Shown here one piece after another: positions 23,332-64,000 of a stretch of DNA of 64,000 nucleotides. The position numbers and the translations under genes were made by a program. Position 1 is the stretch's first letter. Each line of letters opens with the position of its first letter. The notes under the pieces are model-generated. The model made no database searches. It saw only the letters and a program-made list of their open reading frames with translations, and was not told the DNA's origin. The DNA is from Coffea arabica (Eukaryota > Streptophyta > Magnoliopsida > Gentianales > Rubiaceae). Location of the stretch: positions 51,407,001 through 51,471,000 of the forward strand of contig NC_092316.1 of assembly GCF_036785885.1 (NCBI RefSeq). Direction: 5' to 3'.

Positions 23332-23864
23332 TAACAGGATAAATTGTTTGATTTTTCACTTTTTGAGAATTTTGTGGCCTGAGATTAATGGGATACTGGT
23401 TGGTAAAGTCCTGATTTTGCATTTTTTTGTTTTGATTAAAAAAGAAATACAAACTGTTAATTTGAGTGCAAAGCTATGAGTAGGTGAAGATGTTTTCTCT
23501 GTTTTGACCCTCTCCAAAAACAATCATTTGTGTTCAATCTTTTTGAAGCTAGACATATTTTTATCTGGACAAATTGTTATTGGATAACTCTTTGATCTAG
23601 GAGACCTTGTCGGTAGTTTATTTTTTGCTTTTAATACTTTGTAATTTGGTGGTAAAATATGATCTTTTTGGAAAGAGCAACGCATTCAACTGGCCTGATT
23701 GCATTCAATTAAACTTTCTAATATATCTTCATATGCTGTAATTGTGTTGGTTACTATTTTGAATGTCATTGATTGTGTTTTCCTTTTTTGGGCTAAAGTT
23801 CTTGCACAGTTGCCATCCTGTTAGTGAGAAATTTTTGGAAGATTGGCATAGATTTCTGTCAGCC

Positions 23865-25352
23865 ATGACAAGCATTTTAGCTTATAGAAATCCTCAGAAA
23901 TCGTACCTGGGAAGAGAGCAAGTGGCTGAAAGTGGCAGTTATCACTATCAGGGAAATCCTCCCCTCTTTAAGAGTACTAAGCTTGATGTCTCTCATCTCC
24001 AGGGCACTGAAGTTGGCTCTTTAAATCCTCAACACAGGCCTCTGCAGATCATGAAAAATTCCAAAACTCCATGTGCTGTGGCTCTACCAGCTAAACCTTC
24101 AAGAGTTGTTGGAAAAGATAATTTGAAAGCTGCTTGTAAGAAACCAATTCTGTCTGGTAAGGCTTATGCTCGTCTTTTACAATTGTCTTCAACCAATATG
24201 AAAGTCCTTGGGAAGGAAGCTAAGTCACAAAATTTGAATGCAAGTGGTGCAAGTGCAACAACATCATGCCACCCTATGCCGAGTAGTCATCCACTTGAGA
24301 AGGTCGGAAAAGAGATTTCTGAATCTGAGTATTTGCCAGGAGGCAATCGAGGCCTGCATGGTTTCTCTTCTTCTCAGTCAAGGCTTTTGACTGATAGAAG
24401 TGCTCGGGTAGAACCAAAGTCATTGACTTGGAAAATTAAGATTCTGGAGGGGGAGAGCAAACATAAAGTTCAGGAAAGGAATGCCACTTCGGGAGAAGTG
24501 CATAAGGATGTCTGTCTTGAAAATGTGGTCAAAGGTCAATACCAACTTAGTCAGGTAAACAGAGATAAAAGAGGTGGGGGATCTGAGTTTATGGAATTGA
24601 GTAAAAGTAAAGCTGCATTAAAAATGGCTAGAGCTGGATTTAGAGATTTGGAACTGAATTTGACTGCATGTGTATCTCCTGCTTCAGGTTCTAGTAGTGT
24701 CTCTGGTAGTCAGTACAAAGTGTTGGAGGCACTGAAGCAGTTTGAAAAGTTATACTTACAACTTCGGCGAGAAGAAAACCAAGGGTTGAAGGGCCGAGCG
24801 TATGCTACTGCTCGTAATTGCATAAAGGCAGCAATGATTCTGAGGAGAGAAGGAAAGTGGATCAACACTGATCAACATATTGGAAATGTATCTGGTATTG
24901 AAATTGGTGCTAAATTTCAGTTTAGGGCTGAACTTGCTGTAGTTGGCCTACATCACCAACTTTTTCGTGGTATTTCATATGCTAGATTTGGCAGCAAAAC
25001 TTATGCAATTAGCATTGTGGACTCGGGTCGTTATGAAAATGTCACCAAGTCTTCTGATGTATTCATCTACACAGGTGAAGGGGGGAATCCAAATGTTACA
25101 AATAAGAAGCCCAGGGACCAAAAAATGGTTATGGGGAACCTTGCTTTGAAGAACAACATGGTTGACAATTTTCCTGTGAGGGTCATTCATTGTCGTAAAA
25201 CTCTTAAAGCATTTGATACCTTAGGAATTAACAATGGGAAGGGTCTCGCATATGTCTACGATGGGCTGTACACCGTCGTTGGTTGCTGGGAGGTGAGAGA
25301 TCAACTTGGTAAGCTGGCATTCAAGTTTGAAATGAAAAGGCTGGTAGAATGA
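23865..25352 (+). CDS. SRA/YDG-domain protein, SET-less, SUVH5/6-related (copy A)
   Basis: A single open frame of 495 aa. I start at 23865 because AG at 23861-23862 is a good acceptor just before it and copy B starts at the equivalent place; the frame is open a further 34 codons upstream to another ATG. Residues 1-285 are low-complexity Ser/Lys-rich linker. Residues 289-304 form the helix (ALKQFEKLYLQLRREE) that precedes the SRA fold in SUVH5/6. The SRA/YDG domain spans about 344-492, with GIEIGAKFQFRAELAVVGLH, SGRY (387-390), YTGEGG (402-407), GNLALKN and the signature YDGLY (465-469). The protein stops right after KFEMKR, where a SUVH would continue into pre-SET and SET. SRA domains bind methylated cytosine, so a nuclear methyl-DNA reader is likely. 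SET-less YDG proteins are known in Arabidopsis. The target preference is unknown. Confidence 0.9.
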   Translation: MTSILAYRNPQKSYLGREQVAESGSYHYQGNPPLFKSTKLDVSHLQGTEVGSLNPQHRPLQIMKNSKTPCAVALPAKPSRVVGKDNLKAACKKPILSGKAYARLLQLSSTNMKVLGKEAKSQNLNASGASATTSCHPMPSSHPLEKVGKEISESEYLPGGNRGLHGFSSSQSRLLTDRSARVEPKSLTWKIKILEGESKHKVQERNATSGEVHKDVCLENVVKGQYQLSQVNRDKRGGGSEFMELSKSKAALKMARAGFRDLELNLTACVSPASGSSSVSGSQYKVLEALKQFEKLYLQLRREENQGLKGRAYATARNCIKAAMILRREGKWINTDQHIGNVSGIEIGAKFQFRAELAVVGLHHQLFRGISYARFGSKTYAISIVDSGRYENVTKSSDVFIYTGEGGNPNVTNKKPRDQKMVMGNLALKNNMVDNFPVRVIHCRKTLKAFDTLGINNGKGLAYVYDGLYTVVGCWEVRDQLGKLAFKFEMKRLVE

Positions 25353-42589: not shown

Positions 42590-43271
42590 GCTGATCCATC
42601 GATCAAGTGAGCTGATCACCGCGCGCCTTTGGTGCTATAAGACAAACTTGTTCAATAGTGGCTGTAACCTCCACCACTATGTAGCTTTGCAAAAACTTCT
42701 CCGTCGGCAAAAATACAATCTCACCATCTCTTCATTTTCTCACAATGCTGATGCTGCTTTAGCCCCTTTTCTCTCAAAACAATTCCAAGAAGTTCACTGA
42801 TTTCGATTTCTGCATCTATTTCTGTTATTATTATTATTATTTTTTTTTTGCATGCAAGGCATAAATGATACAATACAATACAAACCATATTTTTTTCCTT
42901 TTGTTTCAGGATAATCTGGTGGATCTTGGTTGAATCTGTTCAGGACATTTTGTTTTTCTAGGGAATTTCGTAAGTTTTGGTGCTAATATTTGGTGATCAT
43001 TCTTAATTTTGGTGTTTTTTAGACTGATTGTTAAGCAATGTGTTTTGTTTTGAGACTATTTTTTGGGGTTGGGAAGCATTCTATGCGAAACTTGTACTAA
43101 CTCTGTTTTGTACAGATTTTGCTTGTTACTGTGTTGGGATTTCGCAAGTTTGGGCACTAATTTCTTGTGTACAACCTCTCTTTTTTTTTTTTTTTTTTGG
43201 TTTTGTTTCAGGAATCGGGGCGGCTCTTGATTGAATCTGTTCAGAATCCTTCTGTTTTTCTTGGGAATTTT
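42590..43271 (+). other. Leader region of SRA copy B with a duplicated exon-like unit
   Basis: Two 60-bp units, 42910-42969 and 43212-43271, each follow TTTGTTTCAG and end before GTAAGT. They share TTGAATCTGTTCAG and TTTTTCT(A/T)GGGAATTT, so they look like tandemly duplicated 5'UTR exons. A GTGCTATAAGACAA motif near 42634 could serve as TATA box. The same arrangement exists in pseudogene D (about 57550 and 57834), so the duplication is older than the D/B split. Confidence 0.5.
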
Positions 43272-43731
43272 GTAAGTGTCGGTGCTAATTTGTGGTGATG
43301 TTTCTATTTCTTTTAAGTGTATGTTAGGCATTATGGCTTTGTATCGGAACCATCTTTTGCGGGTTAAAGGACCATTCTTTGCTAAAATTGTACCGTCTCT
43401 TTCTTGATTTTGTTTTGATTCTGCTTGTTACTGTGTGAGCAAACGTTACTTTGCGGGTCTCACTATTGTTGTCGATTTGGTCGTTGATTGGTAAATATTT
43501 GTGTAATTTGGGATCCATTTTCAGTAGCTTCCTCTTGATTTTCGTAGGTTCAGTGATTTTGGGATACTGATCCATTTCTGTAGTTGATCCAATAGATTAA
43601 TTGATTGGTGTGTGGTTGGTCTATGATTTAGCATGAATAAGTTTTTACAGTCTTCTTAGTGATGGCAGACGTGTAAGGGGCTTTTGAAGTTTAAAGTTTT
43701 TGGATTTTTTGTTATTGTTTTTAATTTTTTC

Positions 43732-46530
43732 TTTAGGATGGGTAAGCAAGAATTTTAATATCGTCATTATGGCGCCATGGCACAATGAAAGAGGTTTGAA
43801 TCTTTAGTATTGTCGAGTGGAGCACATCTTTTTGGATTTCTTGTTTTATTTTTACTTTTTTTGAGATGCAAGTTTTCTTTAAGGCTTAGTTTTGGAGTTT
43901 ATGAAGGAAGAGAAGAGAAAAGAAAAGAAAAGATAGCTTAGGAAAGAAAGGAAGAGAAGGGAAAAGATGCATATTTCGTTTGGGAGTTTAATGAAAGAAA
44001 AGAAAAGAAACATCTTTCTCTTATTTGAGAGTTGGAGAGATATGGAAAGAAAGGATTTTATGAGAATACAACTTTACATATTTGCCCTTTTTATTTGTTA
44101 TTCAAAGTCCAAAAATTAGCTTTCTTGTTCCCATAAATAGAATATTTGGACAAGACAAATTTCTAAAACAATTGCATATGCTTTTCCACAAGGTGAATAA
44201 TACAACAAATTTCTTGCTGGACTTCGATTCTCTTGCATGCATGTAAATCGCCTCAAGTCCTTGTAGTATCTTTTAGGTATTCTTGACATATGATTTTGAT
44301 ATTGACCGGAAATGCCATTATACATGTTTCAGCTAGTGTTTTTGCTAAGCTGAAACTCAAGTTTATCACTAAATATTCGATTATCTCAATCTTCACTTCT
44401 TCACCACTTGATCCATCCTAATGTTTATAAAATTTTATTTGTTGATGGTTAATGCACTGACAAGCATGACGTTTGGCATTTAATATTGAAAGTTTTCATC
44501 ATTTGATCTTTTTTTTTTGTTTTTTTTAAAGAAAAATCATTCCAATAAACGTATTTGAGAGTCAAATATCAAATAAGAACTTGGGACTCTCAAATAGCCA
44601 ATACGTTCGGGGGAGCCTGGGGACTTTGGCTCAACTCCAGAGTAACCACATCCCAAACAGCCACACGTATTTGAGAGTCCTTACCAAAGTTCTGGCACTC
44701 TAATGCTCTAAGTTTTTCATCAACCATCTGAATTTCAAGAAGACCAATACAATACCAATTATTGTAATTTACATGCTGCATTACTATTTGAAGTAATTAC
44801 TGAATAACTAATGCCCAGTAGTACATATACTAACGCGAGCATCTTCAAGAGTAGAAAATGGCAATGCATACTCTGCAGCACCAGGCACAGATTCAAGCTT
44901 TGCCTGAGCACCTAGTGCAAGTACCAACCTGGCTGCCCAAGCACAAAAAAACTAACAATTTAGTACAGTCCAATTCATTCATCCACACCGCTACCTTTGC
45001 CAGGAACATATAAACATAGATAAAATATTTTGTTTATGGACTCTGTGTTGATCATTTTACACTTTGAAGCTTACACAGGCAAATAAACAAACAGAATGTA
45101 TGCATTTAAATTTCATATTCATGTATCACCACTGAAACTTACATGTACCATAACCATACAAGATATAATCACAAATCAATAATATAAAGATCAAGATTTC
45201 CTGCAGGCAAGAATTTTATACAGAAAATGAACAAAAAAATTTAGAATATAAACAATAACAATCTACACAAAAAAATGCCTTTTCCATAATTTTCTAAAGA
45301 AGATTGAGCAAAGAAAGAAAGAAAGAAAAGATTGAGTCAAAGAAATACCTGTTATTGAATTGTGGGTGTTGAACGGAAGAAAGCCAGGTGAATCCAGTTG
45401 GAAGTATTGAAAGTAAGAGCTGAGAAAATGATGAATCGGTGGTTTTACAAATGACCTTTAGGATATATTGGGAATAATAAATTTTTGTATCAGCTTTTAA
45501 GGGACAAAAATGTCATATTAAAAATACCTTTTGCCGCCCAGCAAGTTTCCGTCCATTTCTTCCCACTTTTGGGTGGAAAAATTTTCACCAATTGGAAGGG
45601 GTCCTATCCGTTCATTTCCTTTCTCTTCTGTCCATGTTAAAACTCTCAAACGAAGGAAATGGTACGGCTTTCTCTGGTCACTTTTTTTTCTGTCCTTTTC
45701 TCTCCATCCAAAGGAAGCACATAAATGAGGATTTTGAAATCGCTGTTATCTTGCCATGGCGCGCACACGAGAATTTTGAAGTTTGCGCTATGCCATCATG
45801 GTGTGAAGACGAGTATTTCAAAATCACCGTTATGGCGCCATGGCATGATGAAAGAAGTTTGGATCTTTACTATCATCGAGTTTGCAATTAGCTCCTTCGC
45901 GAGTCAATGGGGTCCACCTTTTTTTTTTTTTTTTCCCCTTTACGGCTATATATCTGCCTATATTGTGAATTATAGGAACATGTTTTTGGAAATGACATAC
46001 TATATTGTAGCGGCCAATTTTTTTACTATTGCTTTTAATCCTTTGTCTATCTTTAGTCAATTTCATTGTGCGTGCTGCCTTTATTTATATATTCCCAAAA
46101 GTAATATTTTCACCAAAAAAAATGCATATATGAATATATTTTTGAAGGAAATCTTTTCATGAAATTGCATTTAAGAGTACATTTTTTGAAGCAAATCTTT
46201 TCATGAATGTATCTTCAAAGTCATTGACTTTCCACTTTTGAACACAACAATATTGTTGACAATGTTGTAATATGTAATTTACATTCCTTCTATTGGCTAA
46301 TCAGTGTTTTGGTAGTAAAGACTTGCATACTCCCTAGAGCTGAAATTGCATATTGTTAGTTTTTTTTTTTTTTTTTAAATGGGAGGTTTTCTTTAAGGCA
46401 GGCAAGTAAGAATTCTTAAATCGCCATTTTGGCATTATGGTGTGGTGAAAGAGGTCCAGATCCTAGGGTCGTCAAGTGTGCAATTGGCTCCTTAATGAGT
46501 AATTGGAGTCCATCTGTTTTTACCTATATC
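43732..46530. repeat. Three dispersed copies of a ~100-190-bp unit in the copy B leader intron
   Basis: Copies lie at about 43732-43830, 45735-45925 and 46380-46530. They share (G/C)AAG(A/T)ATTTT..., ATGGCGCCATGGCA and GATGAAAGA-like words followed by GGATCTTTA and GTCGAGTG. The NDC1 fragment sits between the first and second copies. Confidence 0.6.
44615..44932 (-). pseudogene. NDC1: NDC1-like type II NAD(P)H dehydrogenase, two-exon fragment
   Basis: Exon one (44932-44835) is bounded by GGGCAG and GTTAGT and reads RLVLALGAQAKLESVPG, then AAEYALPFSTLEDAR, a close match to the NDC1 family. Exon two starts after AAATTCAG at 44727 with MVDEKLRALECQNF, then SQIRVAV. There the frame shifts: the expected GCGYSGVE continues in another frame (about 44665-44630), and homology ends soon after. 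No other NDC1 exons are seen. The parent enzyme is a plastid/mitochondrial NAD(P)H dehydrogenase involved in plastoquinone reduction and vitamin K1/plastochromanol metabolism. This fragment cannot make it. It lies antisense within the leader intron of SRA copy B. Confidence 0.82.
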
Positions 46531-47138
46531 GTAATATATCTACCTATATTTTTTGAAAATGGCACACCATCTTCGCATCCACGTTGTGTTAATTGCCATT
46601 TTTAATTACTTGTCCGCTTTGTTGAATTTCATTGCGCGTCGCCCTTATTTACATATTCCCAAACATACTGCTTTCACAAAAATATTGCATTTTTTATCAT
46701 CTTTTCATGAAATCGTATTATTAGTCATTGTTTTCCCACTGACCTTTGTTACTTTGTGACCTTTTTCCCTTTTGTTTAAAAGAAACTTCGCTGCTTTGCA
46801 ATCCCTATGAAAAGGAAGAAAGGCGATGGAGAAATTTTGTTGGATCTACTTTCAGTAATTGATAGGGCTCTGTCCATCCTAATTAGATTCACCTAGTTTT
46901 GTTGCAAAAATCTCTTAATGCTTGTAATGTGAAATGCTGATTCTATGTTTGTTCTCATTCAAGGTGTAAGTGTTACTACTATTCATATGATTATATGCTA
47001 TCCATCTTAATTCATCACAAGGAATGAATAGTAGCATTTCTGTAGGACTACATATTTTGTGTGCATTAAGCTGTTTAGAGATATGGTCTGATATGTTTTT
47101 GAGTTCCTGCTCAGAAGCTGAATTTGCTTTTGGCAGTG

Positions 47139-48320
47139 ATGAGAAGTCCTCGAAGGATGTCTGACATTGGGCGACTTGCTGGGCATGAGAGTCATCATCA
47201 TTATAAGAGATTTCAGCCCTATCACAAGCGCTCTAAGCTAGATGTCTCCAATGGTGCAGTAGCTAACATGGGCAAAGAGAAAAATGCCCTATCACAGGAG
47301 AAAAATGCCCACTTTGAAAACATGGGCAAAGATCAAAATAGTCGTGGGCAGTTCAGTGGAGATGAAACGATCATGGCAGCACATGCTTTAGTGGACCTGA
47401 GTAGTGCTAAATCTTCACTTGGAACAGATGTTGCTGGATCCAGATTGTCAAAGTTGAACTCCATAGCAGGTTTCTCTCCCTTTCCTCAGTCGAATAGTTC
47501 GCGGAACATGGCCTCTGGTGGATGTCCTGAAGTTGGTAGTCGCAGCCACGTGCTCAAGTCCATCCAGCTGTTTGAGGAGCAATACATGAAGCTTTTGCAA
47601 GAACAGAGCACAAAAGGCAAGAAAAAAAGAGGAGCAAATGAGAGGATTGATATAAAAGCAGCCATGATTCTAAAGAAAGAAGGAAAGTGGGTCAATACCA
47701 CTAGAGAAGTTGGAGAAATCCCTGGTGTTGAAATTGGCGATCAATTTCAGTATAGGGCTGAACTTGCTATTGTTGGGCTCCATACCCAACTTTCTGCTGG
47801 GATCGACTACATAAAAATTGGGAGCAAACTCTTTGCAACATGCATTGTCGATTCTGGTCGCTACAATAATGAGAGGAGATCTCCAGACGTGTTCATCTAC
47901 ACAGGCGAAGGCGGAAATCCAGAGATTTACAAGAAAAAGGCGGAGGACCAAGAACTTAAACGCGGTAACCTGGCCTTGAAGACTAGCATGCTAGCAGATC
48001 TTCCTGTGAGAGTTGTACGTTGTCATCAATCTCCTGAGGCACCTAATCCCTTGGGCGTGAACAATGGGACTGGCCTTAGATACACTTATCTAGGATTGTA
48101 TAAGGTGAGCTCCTGCGATAGGGTGAGAGATGAATATGGAAAGCTGGCGTTCAAGTTCACAATGGTAAGGAACCAAAATCATGGTGGCTCCAGCAGCAGC
48201 TGCAAGAGGGAAAGGTCGCATCCCAAGGCGAATGATTCTACTAGGAGCAAAGGCGGAGGAGGTACTATTACCAAGGCGAGGGGCTCCTATCAGAAAGGAG
48301 CCTCTTTCCCGCAGGCATGA
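47139..48320 (+). CDS. SRA/YDG-domain protein, SET-less, SUVH5/6-related (copy B)
   Basis: A single open frame of 393 aa. The ATG at 47139 comes three bases after a good acceptor (TTTTGGCAG), the arrangement seen in copy A and pseudogene D. The N-terminus MRSPRRMSDIGRLAG ends in KRSKLDVS, a block shared with copy A. Then most of copy A's linker is missing. The helix LFEEQYMKLLQEQ (144-156) precedes the SRA domain (about 196-343): GVEIGDQFQYRAELAIVGLH, SGRY (239-242), YTGEGG (254-259), GNLALKTS. The signature YDG is changed to YLGLY (317-321), although the surrounding fold is conserved. A basic Ser/Lys/Arg-rich tail of about 50 residues replaces pre-SET and SET. It is likely a nuclear DNA-binding protein; whether it still recognises methylcytosine is open. 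Confidence 0.88.
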   Translation: MRSPRRMSDIGRLAGHESHHHYKRFQPYHKRSKLDVSNGAVANMGKEKNALSQEKNAHFENMGKDQNSRGQFSGDETIMAAHALVDLSSAKSSLGTDVAGSRLSKLNSIAGFSPFPQSNSSRNMASGGCPEVGSRSHVLKSIQLFEEQYMKLLQEQSTKGKKKRGANERIDIKAAMILKKEGKWVNTTREVGEIPGVEIGDQFQYRAELAIVGLHTQLSAGIDYIKIGSKLFATCIVDSGRYNNERRSPDVFIYTGEGGNPEIYKKKAEDQELKRGNLALKTSMLADLPVRVVRCHQSPEAPNPLGVNNGTGLRYTYLGLYKVSSCDRVRDEYGKLAFKFTMVRNQNHGGSSSSCKRERSHPKANDSTRSKGGGGTITKARGSYQKGASFPQA

Positions 48321-49015
48321 GATTTGCTGCCAAGACCAAGTTTATCTGCCTTAGATTTGTTGTTAATGAATGTAACATGTACATACACAATCCCTTGTTT
48401 AAGTTGGACTAACCCTTTTTTTAAAAAAAAATTGTAGAGAAGATATCCATTTAAGTTCTTTCGGATTAACTTAATTGTTTCGTCTAGTTTTTGTGTCTTA
48501 TTTTCGATTAATGGTTTTTTCCATTGTGCCAGTACTACTTGAAATCTGACATCATTGCTGTTAGGCACTAGCAACACGATGTTTAAAGAATCTTGAGCCT
48601 CTCTTATGCAAACTTGTAAGTTTGCTGGTGATTTTTATAGATGTTTTCAGTATCTCGTGTGATGAGAAGATTAAAATATTTTGCTTGGTGATTCAAAGTT
48701 CTCTATGGACTTTCAAGAAAAAATGGAGGGAGAGGCTTTGCAGATTTAATAAGAGCAACCAGCAAATTAAACTTCACTATTCCTATACCGATAGAATAGT
48801 GCATACAATGCAAATTTATGCTTAACAGGAAGTTCATTGCCTTGAACAACAATTTCTTACCAGCCAAAGAAAATTCAAATCTGAAGTATTAAATACCTGG
48901 GAAATTTCAGATACAATTTCAGATGCTTAGACCTTCAAAGGACTTCTTTTGTACTTATAATTTCTTTCAGTTTGGAGTCACTCATGTTCTGAAACCATTT
49001 ATATGACTCTTTTGC
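48321..49015. other. 3' flank of copy B
   Basis: It should hold the copy B 3'UTR. No other gene is seen before the duplicated block at 49016. Confidence 0.45.
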
Positions 49016-50490
49016 TAATCCCTCGGATTAGATTTAAAAGAAGAGCTACCTCCAGGAAAAGAGTCAGTGGCATTTCTTTCTCTTCCTGGAAGCAGTATTG
49101 AGTTCCACCAAATCTTCGATTTATTGAATTTAACAAGCAAGGATTTAGTTAAGGTATGATTATATTGGTTGGCAATTGACTGGTCAAACCTAGTCAAAAC
49201 CAGTAGAAAATTAGAAAAAACTGGATTTTTTTGGGATTTTTAATGCTTTTTTCCTTTTTACCTTCTTAAAAGTTTTTTTTAATCTTTTTAGACTTAAATT
49301 TGATACTCAAAAATTTGCTAAGATTTTTTTTTGAACTTCAAAATAATTTGGACAAGTGTACCTGCTTTCATGAATTTTTTTTCTAATTTAAATTACAATG
49401 TTAATTTTTAAGTAATATTGAATTATATAAACTTATCAAATTTTTATTTAAAATTCAAAAACACATTAGGATATATTGTTGTAGGTAGCATTTTCATTTT
49501 GTTATGATATATATAATTAAAATATAGGTTAATCCCTTTTTTGTTTACTATCCTGTCCCTCTCCAGACTCTTCTTGCTACTAACTGTCAGATACAGGATT
49601 TGAACCTTGAATCTAACATCGAGGAAGACTTTAAGAGTTCTTTTCTGACCACTAAATATAGGTTAATCTTGTATACAATAATAATACATACACTAGCTAG
49701 ATATATACGTGCCATATATGTCAAAGAATTAATGGTCAAATTTAATTTAGAATTAGATGGCATGCATTTATATCAATGAATATATATACTGTTGATATAT
49801 GTAAGATTAATTCTTTAAATATATGTTTGAGGTCATTTGGTTCTTTCGGACCGCACACACAAATGAATCCATCTATTTTTGCCTATGTCCTGATATATCC
49901 ACCTACATCAGAAGATAATTGAGCACCATTTTGAATACGACAGGCTTCCGTTGTATTGCCATTATGTTATATTGCTACTTTTAATTACTTTGTCTACTTT
50001 ATTCAATTCCATTGCACGTGTCATCTTTATTTACATATTCCCAAACACACTCCTTTCACAAACCTACTGTATTTTTTGTTATCTTTTTGAAGGAAATCTT
50101 TCCATAAAATTGTGTTTTTAGCCATTGTTTTTCTACTGACCTTTGTTACTCTACGACCTTTTTTTCCTTTTGTTTCAAAGAGACTTGGCTGCATTGCAAT
50201 CCCTTTGAAAGGAAGAAAGACGGGGGAGAAATTTTTTTGGATCTAATTTCAATAATTCGTAGAGCTCTATCTATCTTAATTAGAGTCAACATAGTACAGA
50301 AACATGCTTTTCACCTGGTTTTGTTGCTATAATCTTTTAATGCTTGTAATGTGAAATGCTAATTTTATGTTTTTTTTTTCTCATTCAAGGTGTAAGTGTT
50401 ACCATCATTCATATGATTATCTGTTATCCATCTTCTTTAGTCACAAGGGATGAATAGTAGTATTCCTGTAGGACTACATATTTTATATGC
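49016..50490 (+). pseudogene. Leader-only fragment of the SRA gene family (copy C)
   Basis: The part 49016-49840 matches the block upstream of copy B (41030-41735), and 49858-50490 matches the last part of the copy B leader (about 46505-47075: TTGCAATCCCT, AAGGAAGAAAG, CTTAATTAGA, GGTGTAAGTGTTAC, CTGTAGGACTACATATTTT). The middle of the leader is deleted. No coding sequence follows, because the Copia element at 50491 begins where the start codon would be approached. Confidence 0.7.
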
Positions 50491-53400
50491 TTTTGAGTAA
50501 TGTGTTTAATTAATTAGTTAGTTGGAAAGTCAAGTTAATAAGTTAGTTGGCAATTGACTTGTTTAGAATAATCTTTATCTATTTCAATGAGTCTAGAATG
50601 ACTTACTCACAAGTATAAACGAGTCTTTTAAGTTCTAAGATGATTATGAGATAAATGAATCAATGAATTAGCCTCTACTCAAAATTCTCTTTTCAATTCT
50701 TGGCCTAATATCCAACAAAATTGGAATCAGAACTAAGGTTTCACATCCTTAGGCCATCTCCTAAAATCAGAAAAATTTGAGAGATTTTCAACTACACAAG
50801 ATGGTTAATCATAGTAGTGATGATCCTCCAATTCCCATATTCTTCAATCACTATGTCTATTGGTACGTAAAAATGAGAACAATTTTCAGATCACAAGTTG
50901 TGGGGATACGTAGAGAATGGTTATAGAGAATCGGAAAGTGAGAAGGTCTCGCCAATCAAGAATTAACCGCACGGAATGAGCATAGAAAAAAAAAAGTGAA
51001 AGTTCTTTCATAATCCAGCAAGATGTGAGTTTGAATGTCTTCTCAAGAATCATGGGAGCTGATCATGCCAAAGAAACATGGGATATTCTACAAAATGAGT
51101 TCCAAGGAAACTTCAAGGTAAACAATGTTACTGTTCAAACTCTTAGAAGAGATCTGAAAAATTTGAAGATGAGTGATGTTGAAAGTATTCAAAATTACTA
51201 CACAAAGACCACCAAAATTGTAAATGAAATGAAAACTTTTGGTTAAGAAATTAGTGCCAGTAGAATTTATTGAGAAGATTCTTGATAGTTTGCCCCCAAA
51301 ATTTGATCAAATGGTATGCATAATTGAGGAGACAAAAAATATTTCCTCACTAAGTGTTCAAGAGTTGGTGGGATCTTTGAAGGCTCACAAGAAAACGATG
51401 GTTAGACATGCTAAAAAATCTGTTGAAAGTGCTTTTCAACCAAAATTGAAATTTAGTCCCAAGAACAATGAAGGAGAGACATCTTGCAACTATGGAAGAG
51501 GTGGTAGATATGGCTGTGAAAAATGTACAGACAAAAATTCAAGAAGAAAAGGAAGAAACAACCTTCAAAGAGACTTTAATGGTAAAAATTCATAGCCTTG
51601 CAACTATTATGACAAGAACAATCATATTGAGAAAGACTATTGGCACAAAGGCAAACCAAAGTGCTTCTACTGCAAGAGATTTGGCGATACTGAGTAGGAT
51701 TGCAGGTTCAAGACCAATCAACAAGCATGATTTTCAAAAGAACATCAAGGAGAAGGAAATTTATTCTATACTTTCTACATGGCCAATGAAGTCAAGAATG
51801 ATTTGTGGTACCTTGATAGCAGTTGTAGCAATCACATAATAAGAGATAAATACATTTTTGTTGACTTGGATGAATCTATAAAAACTAAAGAGAAGATGGG
51901 AAATGAAGTCATAGCTCAAGTAGAAGGATTGGGAACCATTGGAGCCCAAACCAAACAAGGTACAAAGTTCATTTGTGATGTTTTATTTATTCCTGATTTT
52001 GACCAAAATTTATTGAGTTTTGGATTGCTTCTTGAGCATAAATATGTACTTACCTTTGATGATTATGAGTGTAGCATCTATGACGAAATGGATGGTAGAT
52101 AGTTTGTTACGAAAATCAAAACGCAAGGCAACCAAAGTTTTCCAATCAACTTCAGCCATTGTGAAAATCAAGCCTTCAAAGCACATGTCAATGGAGTTTC
52201 ATGGCTATGGCCTAAGACGTTTGGCTATTTGAATTTTCACAGTCTCAAAGCGCTTTAACAAAAAAGGATGGCATACGATTTATCAATAATTGAGGAGAAG
52301 GTTGTGCATTTGGAAAACAGCAGCGGCAACTATTTCCTAAAGAAGTTACATGGCACGTTAAGAAAATTTTGGAACTAATTCATACAGATGTTTGTGGGCT
52401 TATGAGAACAACTTCTTAAATAGGTAACAAGTATTTCATCATTTTTATTGATGGTTTTTCAAGAATAACTTGGGTTTATTTTATGAAAGAAAAATCTGAG
52501 GTGTTTTCAATTTTTTAAGAAATTCAAAAGCCTTGTTGAAAAACAAAGTGGCCATTACATCATGATATTGAATAGTGATTGTGACAAGAAGTATACCTCA
52601 AATGCATTTCGAAAATTTAGTGAAGATGAAGGCTTGGAAAGGTAGCTGACCATTGGCTACACACCATAACAAAATGGAGTTTTGGAAAGAAAGAACCAAA
52701 TCGTGGTAGAGATGGCAAAATCTATATTGCATGACAAAGATTTGCCAAAGGAATTTTGGGTTGAATCCGTTTATATAGCTGTATATTTACTCAATTGAAA
52801 TTCTATGAATACCGTGTGGAATCAAACTCCAATTGAAGCATGGAGTGGAAGGAAGCCCTCAATGAAACACCTGAAAGTTTCTGGGAACATTTGCTATACT
52901 CAAATTCCAGAAGAAAGAAGGTACAAAATCCAGAAACACCTGAAATTCTAGGAACATTTGCTATACTCAAATTCTAGAAGAAAGGAGGTACAAATTTGAT
53001 GAAATAAATGAAAAATGTATTTTTGCTGATTATAACTCCAAGTCTAAATGTTATAGATTGTTTAATTTGAAAACTAACAAAGTCATCATTAGTCGAGATG
53101 TTGTGTTTGATGAAAATGCTACTTGGAATTGGGCTGAGAAAAAGATTGTAAAGTAGGTTGTTTGGCATCACGAAAAAGAAGAAAATTCAGCAAATGAAGA
53201 AAAAAGTGATGACCATTCAACTCCAACAAGCAATTCACCTTCATCTTCAAGTTCAAACTCAAGTTCTCCAAGCTCAAATCTAAAAAAAATGAGGAGTTTG
53301 AGTGATTTGTATGCACGATGCAACTTGTGCATTCTTGAATCAGAAAATTTTGAAAAAACATTTGGAGAAAAGATTGAAGGAAGGCAACAGAAGAGGAGAT

Positions 53401-54239: not shown

Positions 54240-55480
54240 ATGTGTGGCCCTAATGATACCTACCGTCTTTGTACAATGCCCATTATTCGAGTGTATGCAA
54301 GACACCCATCAACCATCCATATGCTTCTGGATTCAAGCTAAAAACCACTTTGATGAATTTCTTGTACTTGTGAGACTGATTTGCCAACCCAACTACCCAT
54401 ACAAAGCCTCTTAAGACTACATAACACTGATATTGCGTCACCAAGGGATTGAACGAACTATTACGCAACATAAAAATATGTACTATAATATATATCCACA
54501 GGGATTATCTTTTGTTCCTAAATTTTTGAGTGAAATTGCTTTGCATATATGCCAAATAGAATTGGTGGACTACTAATGGCTTCATTCACTCTAGAAGTGT
54601 TTGCAATGTATTGATGATTATATGGCATCGATATGAAGTAATGCATATATTCTGTACATTATCGCACGTAAATGCGCAATAGTCTCATGAACCAACTTCA
54701 ATTTCGATTGCTCTCCCCATCTACTAGTGTGAATGATAGAGGAAACATATGGTTGCAAGCATAAAATCTAATGGTTATGGGTAATTTTTCATGGCAATGC
54801 CTTTTCAAAAAGGTACCATTAACATAAATAATGGGTTTTAAATGACCGAAAACTTGGATAGTAGGAGCAAATGCCCAAAATATGTAATCAAAAATCGTAT
54901 TGGAAAGGGTGCCGTGGATAATGGTCGCAAATAACCAACGTGCCCAAATTGGAGCATTGCAACTCCGGCCTATATATCGGTATTTGTGATATAGATGACG
55001 GCAAGTCACCATACATAATATCAATGGCCCTGTGCCGAGCGTACTAATATTTCTTGCACGACACATCATAGTAGGACTCCTTTTTTACCGATGTTTAGAT
55101 TTCTTTGATTTTGAACAATGAACCATTGACGATGTGGGGGATAATATGCTTGGCAGTTATGTTCTTGCTTAACTTACTGTGGTCATTGTTGTTGCACACA
55201 CTAACACATATATACTCATAAGCAAATGTTATAATCATCCACATCTTATAGGAACTATGCAAGGTTGCTCAAAACTGCCAGTTGCATAGAGGTATGGTAT
55301 TGCAGGCCATGTATTAAGCATACCAAGTTGTTAGAGTGATCTTTCGGACTTTGTACTCTCTATGTTTCTTTATGGACCACAACTTCACTTCCCACTTTAC
55401 ATGTTCTTTGGTCTCAAATAACTGTCCCATATCTAGTTTCGTCATGCAATCATTCGACAACTTGAGTTTCTTAACTCCTC
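54240..55480 (-). pseudogene. MuDR/MULE transposase relic
   Basis: Read on the minus strand: an N-terminal block MGQLFETKEHVKWEVKLWSI then KKHREYKVRK (about 55420-55330) resembles the MuDR DNA-binding region. The transposase core follows, DYIFWAFAPTIQVFGHLKP then IIYVNGTFL and PLSFTLVDGES (54900-54700), and lastly NPEAYGWL (about 54320). The blocks are in the expected order but frameshifted. No terminal repeats were identified. Confidence 0.75.
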
Positions 55481-56600
55481 CTGCAGCTAAATGGTTGAAT
55501 TATAATGTAGCATCAATACTAGTTTCATACCACAATTGTGATGCATATCAGTTGTCCACGTTGCATCAGGACTCACGTGTTGGCGGGTTGTCACCAGAGA
55601 ACCTGGGTAACCTGGGTTAAAGCAACGTTTATTACACATTCATAAGACAAAGACTTAATTGCTTTGAAGAGTCTGACTTGCCTCAAGAGAAAGTGACCCA
55701 TTTGGGATTGCAGTAAATTATTGAAAATTACTCCCCCAATTGAGCTTTTAATAAAGTACTTATTAAGTGCTCAAGTACTTTCAATTATACTATTTAGAGA
55801 TATAGTTCACTTAAGTGCTTATTGTATTGGATAATGTGTGATTTGAAAATTTTTAAATATATTTATTTATTTATTTAGTTTATAATAAAAAATAAAATGA
55901 TTAAATTTAATATTTTTTTTAAAATTACAAAAACTATTCTAAAAGCACCAAATTTGAACTTTTGTTAAAAGTGTTTTAATACCAAAAACTCCATTCCTAA
56001 TTTAATGGGATGATATTCACCAAATGCCTTAAAAGTACTTTTAACATCTAAAAGTACTTTTTTACCAAAATTACTGCAACCCCAAACGTGACCTTTGATG
56101 AGAGAACGATTTAAGAAAGAGAAAGAGCCAGAGAATATAGTAGCTGCTTAAAGAAAGAGAAAGAGCTAGATGAAATGAAACGTTATGAATGATTTTTACT
56201 TTTGGTGTCTGCTTATACAGAAGAAAATATGACAGATGTTGATCTAGCTGTTGATCGTAGAGGCTAGATCAACAACGATCATATTTAAAAAAAAATATAT
56301 ATATATATAAAACCCTATTGTGCACAATCAGCACTGTAGGGTTTACACTTTTTTTTTAAAAAAAAAGCAACTAAAAAAAGCTGTTGTTCCTGAAAAAGTT
56401 GTTGCCATTCCAATCAATGGTCATTTTTTTTTTTAAATTATAGTGCTGCCATGAATAGTTAGCACGACAACACTTTAATTTTGTTTAAAAAAAAATGCTT
56501 TTGCCCTACTGTGTATAATCAACACAGCAGGCATATATCTAGAAAGTAATCTTGTCACAACAATAGTTTTGCTATTTTTGACCTATATTTTAAGGAATTA
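55481..56600. other. Gene-free spacer
   Basis: AT-rich. An inverted GTTGATCTAGC / GCTAGATCAAC pair lies at about 56238-56275. Two related stem-like blocks containing CCCTA(T/C)TGTG and its complement lie near 56310-56342 and 56502-56532. No gene. Confidence 0.45.
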
Positions 56601-59600
56601 GCCTCTAGTGAGCTTTCACCATATAAGCATTTAGTCATTATTAAACTAAACTATTGAAAGCGAGATAGCATATATAATTAAGCATTTGGTAATTATTAAA
56701 CTACTAAAAGTAAGATACTATATATTATACATGCATCACACAAATTATATTTCGGAAGTAATAATTAAAAAGCAACTATCTATATAAACTAGCACATGTT
56801 AAGTACAAAAATCACAAATAGTTAATCACTTCTTCCATTCTTATCTCTCCCTCTTTTCCTAGAAATTTCACATAAGTGATAGGAAATTTTCTTTATTTTC
56901 TTGCTTCAACAAAAGTAAATCCATTTTCATACAAGTACAATTTATTGAAGAAATACATCAAAATCCTTTGGTATGCAAAATTTCCCAAACAAAAAGACAA
57001 AATTTTCTTTGCTAAGAAAACGTTTCACTTATCCTTGCCATTCTTTTAATTGCATAAGGAATTCAAAAGCATTTACACTTTTGTATGTGTGTAATCCCAT
57101 CTTCAAGTGTGTGAGATTTGAAACAAAATAAACTATCTCAAAACAGTGACTCGTGTCAGAAAAAGAAGAGCTACGTGGACACTGAAGAGTGAAGAAAGAA
57201 AGTTGGCATGCAATGCAATTCTTTAATCTCAAATGCTGATCCATCGATCAAGTGAGCTAATCATTACTTGTGGCGCTATAAGACAAGCCTATTTAATAGT
57301 AGTAGTAACCTCCACTACTATATAGCTTTGCAAAACTTCTTCATCGCAAAAATACAATCTCACCATCTCTTCATTTTGTCACAATTTTAATGCTACATTA
57401 GCTTCTTTTCTCTCAAAACACTTTCAAGAAGTTCACTATACAGTTGTTTTCAATTTCTTGATCTATTTCTATTAGTTTTTTTTTTTGCATGCATGGCATG
57501 AATGATACAATAAAATATAAATAATATTATTTTTCTTTTTGTTTCAGGAGTTTGGTTGCTCTTGGTCAAATTTGTTCAGAACTCTTGTTTTTCTTAGGAA
57601 TTTTGTAAGTTTTGGTGCCAATATTTGGTAATTATTCTTAATTTTGTGTTTTTAACTAATTATGAAGCATCGCATTTTGTTTTGGGACTATTTTTTTGGG
57701 GGTTGGGAGGCATTCTATATGAAACCTATTCTAACTCTATTTTTTTACAGATTTTGCTTATTACTATGTTGGAATTATGTAAGTTTTGGTGCTAATTTTT
57801 GGTGTACAACTCATTTTGCCATTTTGTTTCAGGAATTCGGGTGGCTCTTGGTTGAATCTGTCTAGAACCCATCTATTTTTCTTGGGAATTTTGTAAGTTG
57901 TGGTGCTAATTTCAATCGATTTTTCTGTTTCTTTAAGTGTATGTTAGGCATTATGACTTTGTTTCGAGACCATCCTTTTGGGGGTCAAAGAGGAATTATG
58001 TGCTAAAACTGTACCAACTCTTTCTTGATTTTGTTTTGATTCTGCTTCTTACTGTGTGATCAAATGTTACTATGGGAGCCTCACTATTGTTGTTGATTTG
58101 GTTATTGATTGGTAACCTGTGTGTAATCAGGGATCTAGTTTTAGTTGCTTGCTATTGGTTTTTGTGGGTTTAGTGATTTTGGGGTATTGATTCATTTCTA
58201 CAATTGATTATCAGTGTGGTTGGGGCATGATTCAGCATGAATAAGTTGTGTAGTCTTTCTTGTCACGCCCCAAAACTAGGACACAACATCACCCTATCTC
58301 GAATCAAATCTAAAATAACTAAAACTTATACTCAGTTCTAAATCTTCATACCTTATGCCTCCATAGTGATTAGCAATAAGCAAGATAGAACTCAAGTTCA
58401 ACCTATCATATAAAATACAACCATTCATTGCCATAGTCTAATTCTATATATAAAAGTTACCAAACAAACAACCAAAGTAAAGCTCATCTAAACAAGCATT
58501 TTGTTTTCTCTAGAAGCTCTCGTACTTGATCATGTATCTTCTCATATAATGCATCCTTTGCTAAAAATATTAACAAATAAAGTGAGTAAATCACTTGCCT
58601 AATAAGTAACTCAGGTACTCATCCACCAGTATGAGTAAGTTAATATCATAATAAATTTTAAAACACAACTGCCATAAGAGTACATAATTATACAAATTCA
58701 ATAGTTAATAATTTATCACAATAAACTCATGAAGTCTCAGTCTCTATCAACGATGGGATATCCAATCCTGACTATTTGTCCCGTCAGGTAGGTCAGACAG
58801 AAGGTTCCTAACTATTTGTCCTGCTAGATAGGCTAGACAGACAGAAAATTCTTTTGTTCCGTTAGATAGGCCAGACAGACAGAAGTGGTGGAACTAGTTT
58901 CAAAGATAATAACCAAGAAACCACAAGTTCATAGCGCAGAACATACATTACATTCATAATTCCAAAACAAATCATATTCATCTTTATCACAATTCTTCTT
59001 ATGTCAAAAGCAATAAATTTACTCTTACCCATGCCGAATTTCATATTAACATAAGCAGTTGAAACTTGTATCTGTCGTTATATTAGATTGCCACTTTTAA
59101 TTACTTTGTCTGCATTATTCAATTCCATTGCATGTGCCACCTTTATTTACATATTCCTAAAATACTCCTTTCACAAAAATATTGCATTTTTTATTATCTT
59201 TTTGAAGGAAATCTTGTAACGAAATTATATTTTCATTCATTGCTTTTCTGCTAACCTTTGCTAATTTGTGACCTTTTACCTTTTGTTTAAAAGAAACTTG
59301 GCTACTTTGCAATCCCTTTGAAAAGAAAGAAAGGTGATAGAGAAATTTTATTGGATATACTATCAGTAATTGATAAAGCTCTATCTATCTTAATTAAATA
59401 CAACGTGGCTTAGAAACATGTTTTTCATCTAATGTTGTTGCTATACTCTCTTAATGCTTGTAATGTGAAATGCTGAGTTTATGTTTTTTTCTCGTTCAAG
59501 ATGTGAGTGTTACTATCATTCATATGATTATTTGTTATCCGTCTTCTTTTATCACTGAGAATGAATATTCATGTGGAACTACATATTTTGTATGCTTCAA

Positions 59601-59743
59601 GCTATTTAGAGATATGGATTGTAATGTGATCTGACAACCTCAAAATATTCTTCTTTTGTATGTTTTGTTGTTTCCCTCAAGTTATTGAATTCCTGTTTAG
59701 AAGTTGAATTTGAAAATAGTAGGATACATTTGCCTTCAGCAGT
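56600..59743 (+). pseudogene. Leader region of SRA pseudogene D
   Basis: The part 56600-58255 is homologous to 41930-43670 upstream of copy B, including both exon-like units after TTTGTTTCAG. From 59070 the match resumes with the last part of the leader (B 46580-47120). Between them lies an unrelated insertion (58260-59065), while the NDC1-containing part of B is absent. This shows that the NDC1 fragment and the 58260 insertion are lineage-specific. Confidence 0.7.
58260..59065. repeat. Insertion in the D leader with TAGGYCAGACAGACAG repeats
   Basis: It starts TGTCACGCCCCAAAACTAGG and contains three tandem variants of a unit with ACTATTTGTCC and TAGATAGGCCAGACAGACAG (58770-58885). It interrupts homology with copy B. 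I see no coding domain; it may be a piece of a retrotransposon. Confidence 0.5.
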
Positions 59744-59887
59744 GATGAAAAGTCCTAGAAAGGTGTTTTACACTGGGAAATGATATGCTGACTATGATAG
59801 TCATCATTATAAGAGATTTCAACACCTATCACAAGCATGTTAAGCTAGATATCTCCAACCAGTAACTGATAGATTTGAGGTTGCACC

Positions 59888-60365
59888 TGTTAGAGTATCA
59901 AGCCAACTATTTGAGATAAAAAAAATCAACAATTTAATAGAAAATAATAACTAACACAAACAATGAGTAACGCACAAAAATTAACGTGGTTCGACTTAAT
60001 TACCAAGCCTACATTCAAGGATGTTTTGAGAGAAAAAAATACTACAAGAGTACAATTTGATTCCCAAGTCTAACTCTTGTACAACCCTCTCATTTACTAA
60101 GAATTCTCTCACCCATTTTCTCGTGTCTTTGTAAAATACCATTCTATCTTATATACAATATTATTGGTCAAGAACCAAATAATAATAGGAAACCAACGTT
60201 AATTCCTAAAGTTATATAGAATAGGAAATAATTTCTAATTCCTAAACAAATACGAAATAGGAAATAACTTGGCAACTACTCCAAGTAACTAAATAATTAA
60301 AAAATTAGTTATTTTCACATAAAATAAGGAACTTAACTAAAAGAAATAAATCTAATTTTCAAACA
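59888..60365 (-). repeat. LTR (3' LTR in element orientation)
   Basis: 478 bp. It is paired with 61901-62378 and bounded by the polypurine tract on its right side. Confidence 0.88.
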
Positions 60366-61900
60366 AATCTCCACCTTGGCAAATATTTCTTTTAGCAAAC
60401 ATAGCAAACCATCCAAAAAATCCCATTTGCCTTTTTATCACCAAATACCTTAGCGCCTAGTTACACACTCGAATCAATACAGCTTTGTTTTCAATTGATT
60501 CAATTGGCAAATGTACATGTTTAGCTAACCAAGTCCAACATCTAGTTGACTCGTGAGAGGGATCTCAATTTACCCTCTCCCACAATAGGATTTTTCCTCT
60601 CACCATCATTTGCAATTTGGAAGTGTTCTTGTAACCTTTTCTTGCGCTACGCTTCCAACCCGTTAAGGTAATCAAATGGTGTACATTACCATACTTTTCC
60701 CCCATGAACAAGATCATCTCGCTACTGTGATTTTCAAGACTCCACCTACAGCCGAAAAGTGGTAGCTCCCGGAGTCTAACTGGTTCAAAGAGATTAGATT
60801 CTTTCATTACTTTGAAACATAAGCCACATCATCCAAAGAGTGAATCTCTCCATTCAACATTTTGATTTTCACTACTTCAATACCTTGGACTTCACAAGTA
60901 GATCCATCACCCATAGATACAAAACCTACATTCTTTCTTTGGAGAATATCAAAACCTGGAGCAAACATGTGAAACACATCCAGAATCCAACCATCAAGAG
61001 AAAAAGTATTATTACCTTTGGAGATTGTGAGAATATCTTCACCTATTACATATCCAGTAACATCATCATGCTCATCATCATTTTTCTTTCGATGAGGGCA
61101 ATATCTTCTGATATAGTCAAACTGATAACAATCAAAACATTAGACTCCACTATTTCTCTTAATTTTTGAACCACTTACCTTAGATTTACTGTCAAATTTT
61201 TTTTTCTCTTTTATTCTCATCTCAAGAAATTAACACAGCTTCTATGTCAAATCCTAGTTTGCCTTTTTTTTTTATTTTTCATGATCCAACAAAGATGATT
61301 GTACATTCTTGAACTCTAAAGTGCCCTTTCCGTACAATATAGTCATCATGACACGTTTGTAAGAATCAGAAACTGAGGTAAGAACTAAAAGAGCCTTATC
61401 TTCTTTCTCAATTTGGACATCAACTTTTTGGAGTTGATCTCAAATTGCGTTGAATGTATTCATGTGATCTATGCAGCTGCCACCCTTCTCCATCTTTAAC
61501 TTATACTGTTGCTACTTCAGATGCAATTAATTGGATAAACTTTTATCCCGATAAAGTTTTTTCAATTTTTTCTAAAGGACTACTGCATAATCTTTCTCGT
61601 CTATCACATTGTTTATAATGTTGTCTGTAACATAGAGCCGAATCATACTCACACACTCTGCGTCCAATTCTTCAAATTCATCATCCTTCATGCTCTCTGG
61701 TTTCTTATTCTTACCGTTCAACATTTTTGCCAAGCCTTGTTAAACTAGAATATCCTTCACTTTTCTTTATCAAAGAGTGAAACTTATAATTCCATTAAAC
61801 GGTTTAGTCGAAAATTTATATTTCCAAACCTCATGGTATACCACCAATCACTCAATCTCAAATAGTTAACCAGAACCCCAACATAGCTCGGATACCACTT

Positions 61901-62378
61901 GTTAGGGCATCAAGTCAACTATTTGAGATAGAAAAAGATCAACAACTTAATAAAAAAATAACAAATAGCGCGAACAATGAGTAATGCAAAAGAATTAATG
62001 TGGTTTGGTTTAATCACCAAACCTACGTCCATGGAAAGTAAAACTTGTTCTTATTATGAGAGAAAAAGTACTACAAGATTACAACTTAATTCCCAAATCC
62101 AACTCTTGTACAACCCTCTCGCCTAATAAAAACTCTCTTACCATTTTCTTGCGTGTCTTTGTAAAATGTCAATCTACTTATTTATAGAGAATATTATTTG
62201 GCCAAGAACCAAATAACAATAGAAAACCAATGCTAATTCTTAGAGTTGTACAGAATAGAAAATAACTTCTAATTCCTAAACAAATACAAAATATGAAATA
62301 ATTTGGCAACTATTCCAAATAACTAAATAATTAGAAATTAGTTATTTCCATAAAAGAAATCAAGCCAAATTCCTAACA
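61901..62378 (-). repeat. LTR (5' LTR in element orientation)
   Basis: 478 bp, adjoining the primer-binding site at about 61887-61900. Confidence 0.88.
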
Positions 62379-63258
62379 GCACCTGCCAAAACTTCTAGAA
62401 TTTTACCATCAAATGATTCAAGAAGCAAAGCAAATTTGGTTGGGTCATGTGCCGAGGAGAATGAGAAATCAAAACATCTGGCTACAAGTGGTAGCAGTGA
62501 TGGCTTTGATAAAGAAAAAACCAAATCTAAACATGTACCAATTACCAATGGACATCCACCTTCATAGCTTGGAAAAGAGGGTTTATATCCCTAAGAAAAT
62601 TCAAAGGACAGGATCAGCCAAACTCGCAGGTTTTCCTTGATAGGAGTTCTCAGATGGAACCAAAGTCATCCATTGGAATGGTTGAAACCCATGACAAGCT
62701 GATTAAGGATGGTTCTTATTTGAACAGGGGAAAACTAGAGAAAAATGCCCACTTTGAAAACATGGGCAAAGATCAAAATAGTCATGGACAGTCAAGTAGA
62801 GATGAAACAATCATGGTGGCACATGCTTTAATGGACTTAAGCAATGCTAAATCTGTACTTGAAATGGATGTTACTGGATCTAGATTGTCAAAGTTGAACT
62901 ATATAGCAAGTTTACCTCCTTTTCCTCAGTCTAATAATTTGTGGAACATGGCCTCTGGTAAATGTCTTGAAATTGATAGTCGCAGCCAAGTACTCAAGTC
63001 CATAGAGTTGTTTGAGGAGGAATACATGAATCTTTTGCAAGAACAGAACAATGAAAGTAGGAAAAGAGAATGAGCAAATCAGAGGATTAATAAAAGTAGC
63101 CACGATTCTAAAGAAAGAAGGAAACTGGCTCAATACTACTAGAGAATTTGGAGAAATCCCTGGTGTTGAAATTGGTGATCGATTTCAATATAGGACTAAA
63201 CTTGCTTTTGTTCAACTCCATACTCAAATTGATTACCAATTTAAACACTAAGAATATC

Positions 63259-64000
63259 CAACTTCTCTAGTAGTACTGAACCACTTTTCTTCTTTCTTTA
63301 GAATCGTGACTGCTTTTACATCAATCATCTGATCTGCTCCTTCTCTTTCCTGATTTCATTGTTCTGTTCTTGCAAAAGATTGATGTATTGCTCCTCAAAT
63401 AGCTCTATGGACTTGAGCACTTGGCTAGGACATTCACTGAGGCCATGTTCCACAAATTATTGGACTGAGGTAAAGGAGATAAACCTACTATAGAGTTCAA
63501 CCTTGACAATCTAGATCTAGCAACATCTGTTTTAAGTGTAGATTTAGCATTGCTCAAGTCCATTAAAGCATGGGCTGCCATGATCATTTTATCTCTACTT
63601 AACTGTCCATGACTGTTTTGATCTTTGTCCATGTTTTCAAACTGGGTATTTTTGTCTTGTTTTCTCCCAGTCAAATAACAACCATCCTTAATCAACTTGT
63701 CTTGCGTCTCAACTATAATGGATGACTTTGGTTTCACCTAAGAACTCCTATCAAGGAAAACCTGAGAGTTCGACTATTCCAGTCCTCTGAACTTTCTTTG
63801 AATTTCCTGGGGGACATAAGCCCCTTTTCCAAGCTGTGAAGATGGATGGACCCATTGGTAACTGGTGCATATTTAGATTTGGTTTTCTCTTTATCAAAGC
63901 TGTGACTGCTACCACCTGCAACAAGATGTTTTGATTCATCCTTCTTTCCACCTTTTCACATTCTTCTCAATCATTTTTAGCTCCAAAGCATCAGGCTTGG
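63259..64000 (-). pseudogene. SRA/YDG pseudogene E, inverted, runs off the window
   Basis: The minus strand carries the same linker and helix region as D: MKPKSSIIVETQDKLIKD, NTQFENMDKDQNSHGQ, MAAHALMDLSNAKST, SRLSRLNSIVG. After a small deletion come KVLKSIELFEEQY-type sequence and a frame-broken KEEKWFSTTREV, where homology stops at 63259. Frameshifts at about 63740 and 63430 disable it. With D it forms a tail-to-tail inverted repeat; the 5' end lies beyond the window. Confidence 0.85.

Follow-up and report, generated by a model that had tools for sequence, protein, structure and literature searches.

An old, nearly symmetric palindrome of truncated SRA gene copies in Coffea arabica and its capacity to form a hairpin

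Background

How do two dead gene copies come to stand tail to tail, and could such a pair still act on itself or on an intact relative? Plant genes for hairpin siRNAs and miRNAs (MIR genes) are widely held to start out from inverted duplications within gene families, and an arrangement of this kind lies at the right-hand end of a 64,000-nucleotide stretch of the Coffea arabica genome (C7:51407001-51471000; hereafter the window). A sequence-only reading of the window had described two SRA pseudogenes, D and E, as a tail-to-tail inverted repeat and a possible source of hairpin siRNAs. The analysis reported here leads us, with slightly better than even confidence, to regard the feature as an old, near-symmetric inverted duplication in a local array of SUVH5/6-like SRA genes without SET, which probably originated in a single fold-back and has the capacity to form a hairpin.

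Results and discussion

Material and features of the locus

The assembly consists of 131 contigs and 1.198 Gb. Sequence comparisons drew on 113 kb of contig C7, beginning at position 1 of the window, and on 100 kb of the homologous contig C8, and C8 served as the second copy of the locus in all contig-to-contig comparisons. At the locus the two contigs are colinear, in blocks that are 89–97% identical; the identity is 97.4% for D, 97.2% for E and 99.0% for the stretch of copy B. A whole-genome DNA search with 62412-64000, in which very common words were skipped, gave 10 matches at 4 candidates, all of which were scored; on each of the two contigs they are the palindrome locus and copy B, and nothing else was found. 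Positions are counted from the window start, also past the window, and the features are as follows.

23763..25352, plus strand: copy A, an open frame matching only SAD_SRA
42670..48320, plus strand: copy B (frame 47139-48320; SAD_SRA, E = 3.4e-42), the nearest intact relative, with the shared block 47298-47792
56620..58263, plus strand: outer 5' flank piece of D, of which 57318-58263 is matched in E and 56620-57317 only in B and F
59066..59887, plus strand: part of D to the left of the LTR element, with intron sequence and the beginning of the exon
59888..62378, minus strand: LTR element of 2.49 kb, recognized by LTR alignment, target-site duplication and the empty site in E
62379..63212, plus strand: inner arm D, an SRA gene copy with linker and helix exon, cut about 20 residues into SRA
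63200..63230, no strand: palindrome centre, in which 63210-63230 is both D forward (B 47772-47792) and E reverse (B 47763-47743)
63213..64000, continuing past the window to about 66.3 kb, minus strand: inner arm E, an SRA gene copy with frameshifts, the same cut point and its own 5' region

Arms and centre of the palindrome

The tail-to-tail inverted repeat was confirmed by a blastn self-match: 62458-63945 aligns with its reverse complement over 1526 positions at 80.9% identity, gaps counted (E = 0), and the palindrome is present also on C8 (C8:47668763-47670370, 96% identical to C7). Among inverted repeats with arms less than 3 kb apart, it is the longest in the 113 kb of C7 and in the 100 kb of C8. 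The similarity of 85–90% that had been estimated for the arms is correct for the five ungapped D–E blocks (I1, I4, I5, I7 and I8; 85–89% each) and too high when gaps are counted, as in the self-match; in aligned letters, arm D is 86.3% identical to arm E on C7 (758 columns) and on C8 (771 columns).

The arms, first described as similar over about 0.7 kb, are larger, E reaching about 66.3 kb and the match in D starting at 57318. In the outer parts, D 57318-58263 matches E 66268-65357 (76% over 975 nt) and D 59568-59889 matches E 64391-64067 (86%), while D 56620-57330 matches B 41941-42689 and F 91255-91978, and D 59066-59597 matches intron pieces of B and C. The D–E match is interrupted twice, by the LTR element (59888-62378) and by about 0.8 kb without alignment (58264-59065). 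Beyond the end of E, patches common to the E side and B reach about 67.6 kb.

The arms had been thought to be separated by a spacer of about 106 bp, which proved to be mostly gene sequence. Homology to B reaches 63230 in D (B 47792) and 63210 in E (B 47763) in local alignments, and the E tail alone scores 52 against B, compared with a maximum of 34 over 500 letter shuffles. D and E join near 63212, each broken off at nearly the same position within the SRA exon, with an overlap of 21 bp; the break lies about 20 residues into SRA, 28 at most.

D and E diverge by 12–13% in the exon block and by 19–20% in the 5' block, and each differs between the contigs by 2.7–4.3% in the exon block; judged by these distances, the divergence of D from E is old. 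In the exon block, the C7 version of D has a stop and a 2-bp deletion; the C8 version has no lesion there and keeps a 240-aa frame open, so that in this block it is dead by truncation and not by decay. E carries two 1-bp deletions on both contigs, to which C7 adds a 15-bp deletion and C8 a stop. Compared with B, D and E have no frame lesion in common in the exon block, and thus the copied gene was probably in frame there. Some 0.4 kb of linker that is retained in both D and E is missing from B (B 47264-47294 versus 62379-62737 and 63660-64072), and lesions in the linker are therefore not polarisable.

The two LTRs of the element inside D (about 59888-60330 and 61900-62378) show a p-distance of 0.183 over 453 aligned positions, and a separation of 18.3% indicates that the insertion is old. 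It is flanked by a 5-bp target-site duplication, GCACC (59883-59887 and 62379-62383), and E has the unoccupied site; the insertion into D thus followed the split of D and E. The element is probably Copia-like and in minus orientation, judged by a primer-site word and by gag-like remnants seen by eye; the primer-site word is on the minus strand and directed away from the arms.

Origin of the inverted duplication

The near-symmetric centre with its overlap of 21 bp suggests a single fold-back duplication, a mechanism that has been described in yeast and human (PMC7467729, PMC3907307). Probably, a single fold-back (template-switch) event broke an SRA gene about 20 residues into the SRA domain; its product would have been two 5' gene copies fused tail to tail, neither with a complete SRA nor with a 3' end, and D and E would later have acquired different lesions, and D the LTR insertion. 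An explanation that we consider unlikely, though far from negligible, is that two separate convergent copies stood here and that one central deletion afterwards took away the 3' side of each. The array of several copies nearby (B, the fragment C, F and an A-like relic) speaks for it, as do the upstream losses, which are not the same in D as in E. The 5' block places E closer to B (0.161–0.165) and F (0.152–0.154) than to D (0.194–0.199). In the intron block (250–310 nt), D is nearest to B (0.154–0.169) and E is 0.27–0.29 from all others, the intron of E being perhaps aligned to the wrong internal repeat. In a separate count with A as outgroup, among 107 columns one site joins D and E and one joins D and B. 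As far as these alignments go, the copy trees disagree between blocks, which counts against the fold-back reading. In the exon block, however, D and E are mutually nearest (0.123–0.131 versus 0.141–0.158), and we reason that a central deletion would rarely end at matching gene positions, to within about 30 bp, on its two sides.

Foldback reads can yield false palindromes, and an assembly error, which the sequence-only reading had allowed for, might in principle account for the feature. We rejected such an error, the chance of which seems practically negligible: 14% of the aligned positions differ between the arms, and C7 and C8, themselves about 3–4% apart there, have the junction in common. 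The single fold-back is the origin that we prefer.

Relatives in the SRA gene array

The frames of A and B are open on both contigs. In a profile match of those frames SAD_SRA was the sole match, with neither SET nor pre-SET, so that the succession of SRA, pre-SET and SET that characterizes SUVH proteins is absent from both frames. The closest solved relatives of the SRA domain of B are SUVH6 (E = 7.6e-39) and SUVH5 (E = 6.1e-30). In Arabidopsis, At5g47160 is SRA-only. It is reported as a further SRA gene of that species (PMC4036127).

Between the contigs, the dN/dS of B ranges from 0.9 (NG86) to 1.4 (YN00) with 21 differences, and that of A is 0.9–1.0 with 27 differences. The frame of B is thus open, and these ratios lend no support to protein constraint on it; open frames with dN/dS near 1 may reflect fast evolution or relaxed constraint in A and B. 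Constraint on D and E before their death was also tried and rejected: once codons containing gaps or stops were removed, there was no codon-position bias, and pairwise dN/dS among the three copies D, E and B lay at 0.53–0.93.

Other members of the array are fragments. Copy C (48992-50493) consists of upstream and intron pieces of the same SRA gene unit, as does copy F past the window (C7 90281-93643; C8:47685670-47688939), which is 4–5% from B in the 5' block and has no exon match within the stretch compared. An A-like SRA relic, also past the window, lies at C7 79479-79722 (91% identical to A over 184 nt) and is longer on C8 (C8:47678019-47678711, 703 nt at 88%). A 246-aa frame at 37593-38333 looks fasciclin-like (FAS1) by eye.

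Hairpin capacity

The long stem that had been proposed for a transcript across the junction is borne out by prediction. Positions 62560-63990 fold into one stem of 590 pairs on the plus strand (-827 kcal/mol) and of 601 pairs on the minus strand (-847 kcal/mol), and on C8 the stems have 601 and 615 pairs, respectively. With the arms placed in direct orientation, the energy was -337 kcal/mol; for comparison, a stretch of B of equal length gave -427 kcal/mol and five block shuffles -324 to -341 kcal/mol. Seven to 11 uninterrupted helices of at least 21 bp are contained in the stem (both strands, both contigs). The palindrome, like the inverted pseudogene pairs defined in rice, comprises two pseudogenes less than 2 kb apart on opposite strands, with a stem longer than 100 bp and a loop shorter than 2 kb (definition from PMC2708354), and its layout is also that of PAI1-PAI4, a tail-to-tail inverted repeat of gene copies. 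In short, it belongs to a known kind of locus, the inverted pseudogene pair with the capacity to fold as a hairpin.

A polymerase crossing the centre, most likely from the kept 5' region of E (minus strand), would produce an imperfect hairpin of about 600 pairs, from which Dicer-like enzymes could cut 21–24-nt siRNAs; these would act chiefly in cis, on the dead arms themselves. On the minus strand, 62300-64300 contains no AATAAA and one ATTAAA (at 62827), which is weak evidence in plants; on the plus strand of C7, an AATAAA occurs in D at 63089, and it is absent on C8, where the alignment is 2 bp different. G:U-compatible differences show no strand bias (34 versus 41, p = 0.49; on C8, 36 versus 42, p = 0.57), so that nothing suggests preserved pairing, a reading that was rejected. 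We put the chance of detectable siRNAs from the palindrome somewhat below even; otherwise, the locus is a relic.

Mutation spectra and possible traces of methylation

Methylated cytosine tends to mutate to T, and lasting methylation should therefore leave a scar. On C7 the CpG observed/expected ratio is 0.17 for each arm; on C8 it is 0.27 for D and 0.16 for E. Elsewhere in the compared DNA, values of 0.17 or less occur in 50 of 1097 overlapping 870-bp windows on C7 (six of 127 non-overlapping ones) and in 25 of 966 on C8; the low CpG of the arms, near the 5% tail, mildly favours the methylated-repeat reading.

Private CG and CHG transitions, counted after omission of gap columns and of columns where the contigs differ, amount to 23/86 in D, 6/46 in E and 5/46 in B when three blocks are pooled and E from C8 is added (D versus E, p = 0.08; D versus B, p = 0.04; E versus B, p = 1.0). 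In a smaller first set, with E from C7 only, CHG transitions were 11/38 in D and 1/29 in E (p = 0.009), and the same comparison with the exon block gave 15/57 and 3/42 (p = 0.018). A methylation scar specific to the repeat was not supported: the excess is clearest in D, and the repeat hypothesis predicts it in both arms. The LTR element lies in D, and spreading from that element is the simpler reading. B shows no excess of methylation-type transitions by its 5/46. One count points in the opposite direction: transitions from A/T to G/C number 46/822 in B where D and E agree, 26/807 in D and 17/782 in E; without a root, those of B may partly be C-to-T changes in the common ancestor of D and E.

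Between the contigs, with 14 of the 18 colinear blocks used, CHG transitions were 12/100 in the inner arms and 136/1728 in the rest (p = 0.18), the arms ranking tenth of 44 windows. The highest share among the 44 (13/54) belongs to a 1.85-kb window starting at 55925, in the region 55000-58700 at the outer end of D, where there is perhaps an unrecognised methylated element. On these counts the mutation spectra are mixed; they are compatible with siRNAs and give no clear sign of them.

Reach of the arms towards B and A

That the arms are homologous to the intact copy B was confirmed, with 85% identity for D and 81% for E (blastn). Of the 1189 21-mers of B, 35 have a perfect match in D, 81 have one with at most one mismatch and 172 one with at most two, and the longest exact run is 46 nt; the numbers for E are 1, 31 and 130. 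On C8, D has 27 exact matches and 178 within two mismatches, and E has one and 179, respectively. As D matches B better, a minus-strand transcript, giving D-antisense siRNAs, would be the better trigger. The claim of a weaker homology to copy A was too generous: none of the 1641 21-mers of A is within two mismatches of D or E, and ten are within three of D. On this basis, A seems too diverged for targeting by arm-derived siRNAs, and B would be the only plausible target in trans.

Judged by sequence, trans-silencing of B is possible. In soybean, CHS4-derived siRNAs are reported to silence CHS7 at 82% identity with no exact run longer than 20 nt (PMC3804491), and by this yardstick the 46-nt run between D and B makes targeting of B plausible. 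The palindrome might thus be an active silencer in which a minus-strand hairpin driven from E yields D-antisense siRNAs that cut or methylate B, as GmIRCHS, which it resembles in layout (PMC13051633), does on soybean CHS genes. Moreover, hairpins with mismatches or G:U pairs, in which about 18–26% of positions were changed (14% here), are described as escaping self-methylation, at least in part, and yet acting in RNAi (PMC9263138). However, the private CG and CHG transitions of B are like those of E, its low CpG in the shared block (0.35 versus 0.56) is mirrored in A (0.34 versus 0.43), which is beyond the reach of the arms, and its frame is open on both contigs; in the rice case that is illustrated, no sRNAs came from the parent gene (PMC2708354). 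We therefore regard an active silencer as improbable, and measurable silencing of B as similarly unlikely.

A more far-reaching proposal was a self-referential loop, in which the hairpin silences SRA genes whose products maintain that same silencing. The kinship of the SRA domain of B with SUVH6 and SUVH5 speaks for it, as does the use of SUVH and CMT3 in PAI silencing in Arabidopsis Ws (PMC3203196). Nevertheless, the frames of A and B match SRA only, and the arms hold the linker and at most the first ~28 residues of SRA. The genome has 38 SRA matches in all, some in frames longer than 700 aa, and the DNA search with the arms, which skipped very common words, found only the palindrome locus and B; CHG transitions between the contigs are not significantly raised in the arms, either. 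The proposal is thus unsupported, and we consider such a loop most improbable. What would be left is a distinctly long shot, namely that a long-lived mismatched hairpin, older than the contig split and perhaps diverged enough to be less methylated itself, makes D-antisense siRNAs from the 5' region of E and tunes B. If that were true, a methylation-pathway gene family would be regulated by a palindrome of its own dead members, with B as an SRA-only methyl-DNA reader or decoy. The probable single fold-back, with a hairpin that would act mainly in cis, is the reading that we carry into the comparison below.

Comparison with known systems

Among the papers listed by a literature search combining SRA domain, pseudogene, inverted repeat and siRNA, none appears to describe such a locus. 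The nearest counterparts are the inverted paralogous pseudogene pairs of rice, 83% and 96% identical, which make hairpin sRNAs (PMC2708354). As in Coffea, two adjacent, opposite pseudogenes of one parent form a predicted RNA hairpin. Unlike in Coffea, the rice stems are 155–185 nt long, the loop of the first case is 1,283 nt, and sRNAs were observed; the Coffea palindrome has about 600 predicted pairs and almost no loop.

Among the known repeats, PAI1-PAI4 and GmIRCHS are the models for action in trans. The targets of the PAI1-PAI4 repeat are near-identical. The arms of the Coffea palindrome are broken and have diverged by 14%, and the divergence of B is about 15%. PAI1-PAI4 and the palindrome are alike in being tail-to-tail inverted repeats of gene copies with homologous single copies elsewhere (PMC3203196), and differ in the heterologous upstream promoter of PAI1-PAI4. 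The degenerate Arabidopsis inverted repeat IR1074, with the same identity of 86%, gives rise to sRNAs and carries methylation that depends partly on Dicer-like enzymes (PMC3203196). For IR1074, methylation at MspI sites, H3K9me2 and the partial Dicer dependence were measured, and sRNAs are cited in that source, whereas any such marks on the palindrome are hypothetical.

GmIRCHS, at the soybean I locus, is a tail-to-tail pseudogene repeat of 1,087 bp with a 78-bp spacer (PMC13051633), closely spaced and situated beside members of its gene family as in Coffea. A DnaJ-gene promoter has been captured at GmIRCHS, dsRNA is reported from it and it causes a phenotype, whereas the 5' regions of the copies themselves are the candidate promoters here. 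With one intact relative within the identity range of soybean CHS silencing, the palindrome offers a clean test of activity in ageing palindromes; if it is inactive, layout alone predicts little.

In the inverted-duplication model of MIR birth (Allen et al. 2004, as cited in PMC3237417), an inverted duplicate of a family member gives a long imperfect hairpin, as it would here, and one Arabidopsis miRNA gene is reported to overlap two adjacent inverted paralogous pseudogenes (PMC3237417). Compared with MIR genes, the palindrome has no mature miRNA known at the locus and a stem that is still hundreds of base pairs long. It is intermediate, with arms 86% identical, a long stem, presence on both contigs and an internal insertion that helps to date it, and is thus a good, datable candidate for a locus of this kind.
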